Source: Natronomonas halophila (lineage in GTDB: Archaea; Halobacteriota; Halobacteria; Halobacteriales; Haloarculaceae). Taken from it: 64,000 bases of DNA. This document shows positions 14,169 to 15,492 of this stretch, piece after piece (positions within the stretch are counted from its first letter, which is position 1; the number at the start of each line of letters is the position of its first letter). Location: positions 2,728,001-2,792,000 of the forward strand of contig NZ_CP058334.1 in the NCBI RefSeq assembly GCF_013391085.1, in the 5' to 3' direction. Position numbers and translations under genes: made by a program. The notes under the pieces are model-generated. The model saw nothing but the letters and a program-made list of their open reading frames with translations. It had not been told where the DNA came from and did no database searches.

Positions 14169-14174
14169 GGAGGT
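14169..14174 (+). promoter_or_regulatory. Shine-Dalgarno site of purU
   Basis: GGAGGT ends seven bases before the GTG at 14182. It supports that start over the GTG at 14173, which overlaps the site itself. Confidence 0.6.
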
Positions 14175-14181
14175 GTCGGCT

Positions 14182-15147
14182 GTGAGTCGCGAATACACCG
14201 AAATCACGGTCATCGGGGAGGACGACACCGGACTCATCGCCCGGGTGACGACCCTGCTCTTCGAGCGGGACATCAACATCGAGGACCTCGACCAGGCGGT
14301 CCGCGACGGCGTCTTCCGGATGACGATGTCGGTCGACACGTCGGGGATGACCTGCACGGAGGCCGAACTCCGCGAGGCCCTCGGCGACCTCGGCGACGAC
14401 CTCGGCGTCGAGGTGCAGGTCCGCTTCCCCGCCGACCGCGAAACCCAGACCATCGCCGTCCTCGTCACGAAGGAATCCCACTGTCTCGAAGCCCTCTTCG
14501 AGGCGTGGGCCGACGGCGAGTTGGGCGCCGAAATCAGCGTTATCATCGGCAACCACGACGACCTCGAACCGCTGGCCGACCACTACGGCGTCGATTTCCA
14601 CGATATCGGCGACGAGAAGGGCAGTCCCGACGAGGAGCGCCTGCTGGAGGTGCTGGACGACTACGATACGGACCTCATCGTCCTCGCGCGCTACATGCGC
14701 ATCCTCAGCCCGAACGTCGTCTTCCGATACGAGGACCGTATCATCAACATCCACCCGAGCCTGCTGCCGGCTTTCCCCGGCGCCGAAGCCTACCGGCAGG
14801 CCCGCGAAGAGGGCGTCCGCATCGGCGGCGTCACGGCCCACTACGTGACGACCGACCTCGACCAGGGACCCATCATCACCCAGCGGGCGTTCAACGTCCC
14901 GGCGAAAGCCGACGTCGACGAGATAGAGCGCCGCGGGCAACCGCTCGAAGCCGAGGCACTCCTTGAGGCCGTCCGACTGCATCTCGACAACGCCGTCCAC
15001 GTCTATCACGGCCGCACGGAGTACCGCGATGACGTCGACCCCGAGGAGTATCAACTGGGCCTTCCCGAATCGTTCGAGGAGCGCCAACCGGACCGGCCGG
15101 TCGACGGTCTCGGGGGCGTCGTCTCCCGGAACGCCGACGGCGACTAA
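14182..15147 (+). CDS. purU: Formyltetrahydrofolate deformylase
   Basis: PurU hydrolyses 10-formyl-THF to formate and THF, balancing one-carbon units for purine synthesis. The 321-residue protein has an N-terminal ACT-like domain (about 1-85: EITVIGEDDTGLIARVTTLL) and a C-terminal formyltransferase domain. The catalytic Asn-His-Asp set is seen as NIHPSLLPAFPGA and later TTDLDQGPII. A C-terminal tail of about 40 residues extends past the bacterial end. The start is GTG with a good Shine-Dalgarno site. Confidence 0.9.
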   Translation: MSREYTEITVIGEDDTGLIARVTTLLFERDINIEDLDQAVRDGVFRMTMSVDTSGMTCTEAELREALGDLGDDLGVEVQVRFPADRETQTIAVLVTKESHCLEALFEAWADGELGAEISVIIGNHDDLEPLADHYGVDFHDIGDEKGSPDEERLLEVLDDYDTDLIVLARYMRILSPNVVFRYEDRIINIHPSLLPAFPGAEAYRQAREEGVRIGGVTAHYVTTDLDQGPIITQRAFNVPAKADVDEIERRGQPLEAEALLEAVRLHLDNAVHVYHGRTEYRDDVDPEEYQLGLPESFEERQPDRPVDGLGGVVSRNADGD

Positions 15148-15160
15148 CCCCTAGCTTTTT

Positions 15161-15180
15161 GTTTTAGGCCAGCCTAAAAC
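15161..15180. promoter_or_regulatory. DtxR/IdeR-like palindrome
   Basis: GTTTTAGGC and GCCTAAAAC form a perfect 9-bp inverted repeat with a 2-base centre. The TTAGGC/GCCTAA core resembles boxes bound by metal-dependent DtxR-type repressors, which are common in haloarchaea (SirR/Idr). A T-rich tract just before it could be the TATA element. It precedes a strongly structured segment. It could alternatively end purU transcription, but no U-run follows it on the plus strand. Confidence 0.55.
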
Positions 15181-15183
15181 AGA

Positions 15184-15320
15184 ATGCGGAGCAGGGACGA
15201 ACGACTGCTCGGTTCGTCCCGACGCCATCCGGGATTCCGGCCACACCGTGGGCATCAACCGGAATCGTGGCATACCGTTCCGCGTCTGTCCCTTCCTGCA
15301 GCAGTCGACGCGTAGCGAAA
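15184..15320 (+). ncRNA. Candidate structured RNA (or leaderless 43-residue frame)
   Basis: Three stems can form a three-way junction. P1 pairs 15184-15190 with 15279-15285 (7 bp, one G-U). P2 pairs GGGACGAAC at 15194-15202 with GTTCGTCCC at 15212-15220 (9 bp). P3 pairs GATTCCGG at 15233-15240 with CCGGAATC at 15259-15266 (8 bp), with a CCAC/GTGG helix inside. The segment begins at the place where transcription from the preceding box would start. An ATG at 15184 opens a 43-codon frame to the TAG at 15313-15315, but the product is rich in Arg and His, unlike halophilic proteins. Confidence 0.35.
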
Positions 15321-15327
15321 AAGCCGA

Positions 15328-15492
15328 TTACGCGTGGACGCCGTTCGATTCCTCGTCTTCCTCGTGGCTCTCCGGCGGTTCGCTGATTTTCTTGAACGTC
15401 CAGATGAAGCCGCCCAAGATGGCGAGCGTCGCGAAGACACTCAGGAGGACGACTGGCATCGCCGGGTCCGAGAACGTCTGTAGCGGTATCAT
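15328..15492 (-). CDS. Small single-span membrane protein (54 residues)
   Basis: The frame runs from the ATG at 15492 to the TAA at 15328. It encodes a protein beginning MIPLQTFSDPAMPVVLLSVF, with one membrane helix at about residues 10-33 and an acidic tail (EPPESHEEDEESNGVHA). The hydrophobic-then-acidic pattern is typical of genuine small haloarchaeal membrane proteins. I cannot assign a family. It lies upstream of purC on the opposite side from purU. Confidence 0.6.
   Translation of the reverse strand: MIPLQTFSDPAMPVVLLSVFATLAILGGFIWTFKKISEPPESHEEDEESNGVHA

Follow-up and report, generated by a model that had tools for sequence, protein, structure and literature searches.

A conserved haloarchaeal small RNA gene with a DtxR-type operator and complementarity to the start codons of ferredoxin and aconitase mRNAs: a candidate iron-sparing regulator

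Introduction

Iron-sparing small RNAs (sRNAs) are textbook regulation in bacteria, where RyhB (RF00057), PrrF, FsrA, NrrF and IsaR1 represent the class and provide the functional analogues for the putative RNA described here. No archaeal counterpart of these RNAs was found in the literature searched. Regulators tied to iron homeostasis in haloarchaea include Idr, SirR and TroR of Haloferax and Idr1/Idr2 of Halobacterium, and Haloferax volcanii, a species outside those examined here for the RNA, contains less ferredoxin under iron starvation (PMC11349517). Archaeal intergenic sRNAs that act on mRNAs in trans include sRNA162 and sRNA154 of Methanosarcina mazei and s479 of Haloferax volcanii (PMC3510493, PMC8155600). 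A search of the open literature, the original papers on archaeal DtxR regulons not included, yielded no iron-responsive haloarchaeal sRNA with the targets described below.

Here, we analysed a short intergenic segment within a 64-kb stretch of haloarchaeal DNA (the window). We consider it very likely that the segment encodes an iron-starvation sRNA of about 120 nt, a trans-acting antisense RNA that would block the translation of iron-rich proteins.

Results

Predicted promoter and operator of the RNA gene

The segment sits in a 180-bp gap between purU, encoding formyltetrahydrofolate deformylase (14173..15147, + strand; NCBIfam PRK06027/PurU), and a convergent gene for a 54-aa small membrane protein (15328..15492, − strand), both of which lie outside the system. 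The 54-aa protein has a single span and no Pfam match, and was found in 13/20 congeners in varying gene contexts. Directly 3′ of the purU stop are putative promoter elements (15145..15160, + strand), namely a BRE-like AACCCC and a T-rich TATA box, CTTTTTG, whose T-run occupies 15156-15160. These are followed by an inverted repeat at 15161-15180 (no strand assigned), GTTTTAGGC-CA-GCCTAAAAC, with perfect 9-bp arms and a 2-bp spacer. The original prediction of a perfect 20-base palindrome was thus slightly too strong, as the arms are perfect but the central CA is not palindromic. At up to three mismatches, TTTTAGGCNNGCCTAAAA occurs once in the 64-kb window, where shuffles expect about 0.02 occurrences.

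The palindrome was kept in all homologous loci. Across 30 of these, the spacing of the BRE-like element, the T-rich TATA box and the palindrome was roughly fixed, and two sets of columns 5′ of the palindrome were conserved, −20..−14 (A/C-rich) and −10..−6 (the T-run). Our homologue searches required the palindrome TTTAGGNNNNCCTAAA and did not require its spacing from the TATA box. The recurrence of TTTAGGNNNNCCTAAA at a fixed distance from a TATA box in these 30 loci is what is expected of an operator of a DtxR-family regulon (archaeal Idr/SirR). Given this fixed promoter spacing, transcription would start just 3′ of the palindrome, here at about 15179-15185, placing the operator between the TATA box and the predicted start site. 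The RNA gene is accordingly annotated at 15180..15302 (+ strand), with a 3′ end that is uncertain and lies after 15292; its architecture is conserved in about 30 genomes.

In relatives, the same palindrome precedes genes for a siderophore-type diaminobutyrate transaminase, Peripla_BP_2 and SBP_bac_6 proteins. It also precedes a DtxR-family (DtxR/MntR-like) gene in a Firmicute and occurs at a gene for a metal-binding protein. Its presence before such genes elsewhere is in keeping with metal control. Of the original prediction of an iron- or manganese-controlled small RNA, the RNA is strongly supported, as it recurs with its promoter and palindrome in about 30 genomes, keeps a hairpin of varied stem and co-varies with two mRNAs; control by a metal is suggested by the DtxR-type box. 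The only other copy of the palindrome sampled in the same genome (L199:16059-16074; G000:C1 about 2096059) lies between pcna and a gene for a 262-aa protein of unknown function, 20 bp 5′ of the latter, and no iron gene with this box was identified in this genome.

Predicted fold

Two hairpins were predicted within the RNA. The 5′ hairpin P2 (15194..15220, + strand) pairs 15194-15202 with 15212-15220 (GGGACGAAC/GUUCGUCCC, 9 bp), and P3 (15233..15266, + strand) pairs 15233-15240 with 15259-15266 (GAUUCCGG/CCGGAAUC, 8 bp plus a 4-bp inner helix) and carries the ferredoxin seed described below in its loop. A third stem, P1, would close the whole structure. The fold of the whole segment was only mildly better than that of shuffled sequences (z = −1.46; 14/200 shuffles equally good), so the case rests on comparison between genomes. 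Taken locally, the P3 hairpin of this genome was more stable than expected (z = −3.06), with 0/200 flank shuffles as stable.

In 27/31 seed sites, the ferredoxin-seed loop was enclosed by at least 7 pairs, with stem sequences that varied by genus, and other genera had a strong hairpin of different sequence 3′ of the palindrome. The elements persisting in relatives were the palindrome, the 5′ hairpin and a P3-type hairpin. P1, and with it the precise three-way junction, was not kept in the relatives compared, nor was the inner helix. Of the three-stem arrangement originally proposed, the stems are predicted in this genome and the hairpins persist in relatives, but the three-way junction is not conserved. 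Around the ferredoxin seed, a weak hairpin or none was predicted in G018, G421, G426 and others, and in several congeners the local seed hairpin was no stronger than in shuffles. A formal count of compensatory pairs in one gap-free alignment was not significant, there being too little variation. Nothing in the window scored at the gathering threshold of any Rfam covariance model, that of RyhB (RF00057) included, and no tRNA was found; both identities were rejected.

Occurrence across haloarchaea

A DNA search with the whole segment returned only short matches outside the species, and most homologues were consequently found by motif. In four congeners (G001, G009, G015 and G018), the region 3′ of purU contains the palindrome, the hairpins and two conserved strings, GTGGGCATC and GTCTGTCCC. 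When 391 Halobacteria genomes were searched by pattern, further copies emerged within the genus (G004, G010 and G012) as well as outside it (G341, G305, G031, G370, G101 and G261), some with the two strings in swapped order. Strict patterns matched in only 12/391 genomes, which points either to a patchy distribution or to patterns that were too strict. A scan of 84,980 species with the palindrome plus CTGTCCCA retrieved 25 stretches, 20 of them haloarchaeal, and one of these 20 (L134) was without a convincing ferredoxin seed. Overall, the promoter, DtxR-type palindrome and structured RNA recur in some 30 haloarchaeal genomes, including those of Halobacterium salinarum, Halorientalis, Halosimplex, Halovivax, Halorubellus and Natronoglomus. 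The two short motifs persist across these homologues and the rest of the sequence diverges. Two candidates, G162 and L134, were rejected as they matched the palindrome patterns but had no convincing seed pair, and the pattern matches in G023, G121, G207, G302 and G377 were unrelated sequences with no palindrome.

Gene neighbourhoods differed between genera. The upstream neighbour is purU in this genus; in many genera, a DUF7553 gene lies divergently upstream of the locus, and in Halobacterium and Natronoglomus the neighbour is a cobalamin adenosyltransferase-like gene (named by eye from its sequence). The conserved unit is the RNA gene itself. The DUF7553 gene (MNKHFEDAQYYLKRAG...) was seen beside the palindrome at L121, L123-L125, L127, L129, L131, L132, L136 and L139; it starts about 130 bp from the palindrome, and the operator might be shared.

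Complementarity to the ferredoxin start

The first conserved string, seed 1 (ACCGUGGGCAUCAAC; 15245..15259, + strand), is antisense to −4..+11 of the start-codon region of ferredoxin (fdx). Its reverse complement, GTTGATGCCCACGGT, encodes the Met-Pro-Thr-Val with which the classical halophilic ferredoxin begins. In this genome the ferredoxin gene starts ...CGTGTTG-ATG-CCC-ACG-GTA, giving 15 contiguous Watson–Crick pairs with the RNA, and its product was identified as the [2Fe-2S] ferredoxin Fer (NF041393, 218 bits; cut-off 150). Among 1715 start-codon windows sampled from 464 kb of this genome, the ferredoxin start ranked first at 15 nt, the next best reaching 12. No second site anywhere in the genome approached the 18-nt antisense sequence over a contiguous run of similar length.

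In 28/28 genomes for which both sequences were available, the RNA contained 8–15 nt antisense to the ferredoxin start of its own genome (only 8 nt in G424), compared with about 6 for shuffled RNAs. The pairing reaches at most −4 upstream of the AUG, and as it hardly extends 5′ of this codon the mRNAs would appear to have almost no leader. Second matches to ATGCCNACNGTNGARTA in Halobacterium, G010, G018 and G429 were discarded, being 5-codon frames and not ferredoxins. Halobacterium RNAs (L119, about 1180-1240; L138, minus strand; L128) have not one but two stretches antisense to ferredoxin, CCGTCGGCA and CGTCGGCATCA, which may be separate binding sites or copies of different age. An extra stretch in G018 (L070), CTGTCCGTCCCGCGTGGGC, located about 110–135 nt 3′ of the palindrome and 5′ of the aconitase seed, resembles a degenerate duplicate of the two seeds.

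Complementarity to the aconitase start

The second string, seed 2 (GCGUCUGUCCC; 15282..15292, + strand), is antisense to +3..+13 of the aconitase coding start (AUG GGA CAG ACG C), with 11 contiguous pairs. Its reverse complement, GGGACAGACGC, matches the gene start (ATG-GGA-CAG-ACG-C) of an aconitate hydratase (TIGR01342), and the motif is conserved in the homologues. Pairing with aconitase spanned 8–13 nt in nearly all genomes compared and was shortest, at 8 nt, in G370, G427 and G010. In this genome the 11-nt match was not unique, aconitase being among the best seven of the 1715 start windows in the 464-kb sample, a rank that on its own would not convince. Four Halorientalis loci (L121, L125, L131 and L135) share another conserved string, CACCATGC(A/C)T(C/T)CGGCCG, between the aconitase and ferredoxin seeds. 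It could serve as a third seed (in some loci its reverse complement includes ATGCATGG) or have a purely structural role.

Co-variation of the RNA with its predicted targets

The RNA followed its targets through synonymous change. Codon 3 of ferredoxin (Thr) is ACG, ACC, ACA or ACU depending on lineage, and the RNA base was complementary each time. In Halobacterium, codon 2 (Pro) has changed from CCC to CCG and the RNAs read CGUCGGCAU or CCGUCGGCA. Similarly, aconitase of G010 starts AUGGGACGGACG (codon 3 Gln-to-Arg) and the RNA of this genome reads CCGUCCC, mirroring the change. None of the strings used in the searches included the wobble bases that change. Moreover, the loci from the 84,980-species scan were found without the ferredoxin seed, making ferredoxin complementarity at these loci an independent test.

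Among 16 representatives, native ferredoxin pairings had a mean length of 12.50 nt versus 10.43 nt for non-native pairings. None of 100,000 random re-pairings reached the native ferredoxin mean, and for aconitase (native 9.88 nt, non-native 9.32 nt) 575/100,000 did so, counts that ignore shared ancestry and are therefore not strict probabilities. The aconitase signal is weaker than the ferredoxin signal. Complementarity to the translation starts of two iron-protein mRNAs has thus been kept in evolution, with co-variation, as expected of an iron-sparing sRNA, and pairing with both start codons is strongly supported by the comparison.

Discussion

A model for iron sparing

From the operator, promoter layout, hairpin with its loop seed, start-codon complementarity and target co-variation, each established above by sequence comparison, we infer an RNA that is transcribed, with iron as its signal and repression as its outcome. 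When iron is plentiful, a metal-bound DtxR-family repressor (Idr/SirR type) would occupy the palindrome, blocking the promoter from its position between the TATA box and the start site and keeping the gene off. When iron becomes scarce, the repressor would be released and the RNA made. The hairpin loop would then pair with the [2Fe-2S] ferredoxin mRNA at its start codon, and the second stretch likewise with the aconitase mRNA, which would block translation and spare iron. Ferredoxin and aconitase, both iron–sulphur proteins, are thus probably shut down by the RNA under iron scarcity.

The small-protein reading offered by the original prediction, a leaderless gene of 43 codons at 15184-15315, now has next to no credibility. 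An open frame with an ATG is present in the window, but in congeners the frame is absent or scrambled: G001, G009, G015, G010 and G004 have no ATG or conserved frame, and G018 and G012 have an ATG followed by an unrelated peptide. The frame has no Pfam match either. It is also very improbable that the conserved strings serve in protein binding or structure and that their matches to the ferredoxin and aconitase starts reflect coincidence or the pattern searches. Patterns containing one string did retrieve several homologues, but the other of the two strings was absent from the patterns of the 84,980-species scan and of one search of the 391 genomes. The wobble positions that change likewise fell outside the patterns, native pairings exceeded all permutations, and Halobacterium has CGUCGGCAU exactly where its ferredoxin reads CCG.

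The sign of regulation and the nature of the signal are more open to alternatives. Start-codon pairing alone gives no indication of effect and methanogenic archaea have sRNAs that stabilise their targets (sRNA154), so the RNA could activate or stabilise the mRNAs it pairs with, or these mRNAs could act as sponges for it. We regard this as quite unlikely, as the AUG itself is covered at both targets, which should block initiation, and iron-consuming targets fit repression by an RNA whose box is expected to be de-repressed in low iron. The fall of ferredoxin protein under iron starvation in Haloferax volcanii (PMC11349517) points the same way, although this species was not examined for the RNA. 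The alternative with the most weight, though still unlikely, retains the RNA and its targets and replaces iron with manganese or another metal, sensed through an MntR/SirR-type member of the DtxR family instead of the iron-sensing Idr. DtxR-family boxes of this type also serve manganese regulators, and the palindrome is shared with the Firmicute DtxR/MntR-like gene and the gene for a metal-binding protein. Against this, both predicted targets are iron–sulphur proteins, and in relatives the box precedes siderophore-type diaminobutyrate transaminase and Peripla_BP_2 genes. We favour the iron-starvation sRNA.

If this is correct, archaea would have a conserved sRNA acting in trans for which there is a predicted inducer, a promoter logic and a pair of defined targets. 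It would illustrate how an sRNA can target mRNAs whose leaders are very short or missing, namely by pairing across the start codon, and iron limitation would have met with a convergent solution in another domain of life. As the RNA is present in the model organism Halobacterium salinarum, these ideas are directly testable there.

Comparison with known systems

The best explanation for the locus is an archaeal functional analogue of RyhB that has no Rfam match. Like RyhB, PrrF, FsrA, NrrF and IsaR1, the haloarchaeal RNA is predicted to be de-repressed in low iron and to pair with the starts of iron–sulphur mRNAs, including aconitase or ferredoxin. In contrast to RyhB, with which it shares no sequence or Rfam match, it has a BRE/TATA promoter, and its operator is a DtxR-type TTTTAGGC/GCCTAAAA palindrome and not a Fur box. 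It further differs from RyhB-type RNAs in having one fitted seed per target, placed over the start codon, with a seed order that varies by genus. With the haloarchaeal DtxR-family regulons (Idr1/Idr2 in Halobacterium; Idr, SirR and TroR in Haloferax) it shares a TTAGG-type operator and the link to iron, whereas no sRNA was named as a member of these regulons in the literature searched, which lay outside the primary Idr papers. The RNAs sRNA162, sRNA154 and s479 belong to other organisms, signals and targets (the regulator MM2441, nitrogen fixation and zinc transport), and in the literature consulted none concerns the start codons of iron–sulphur proteins.

The locus would represent a new, apparently independently evolved variant of the iron-sparing sRNA, whose design is strongly supported by the comparisons made here. 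It is probable, with rather less confidence than we place in the iron-sparing role itself, that haloarchaea independently evolved such an RNA to act on mRNAs that have no leader, or almost none, through coverage of their first nucleotides and start codon, each seed being fitted to one target and following even its synonymous changes, in a codon-by-codon co-evolution of RNA and mRNA.
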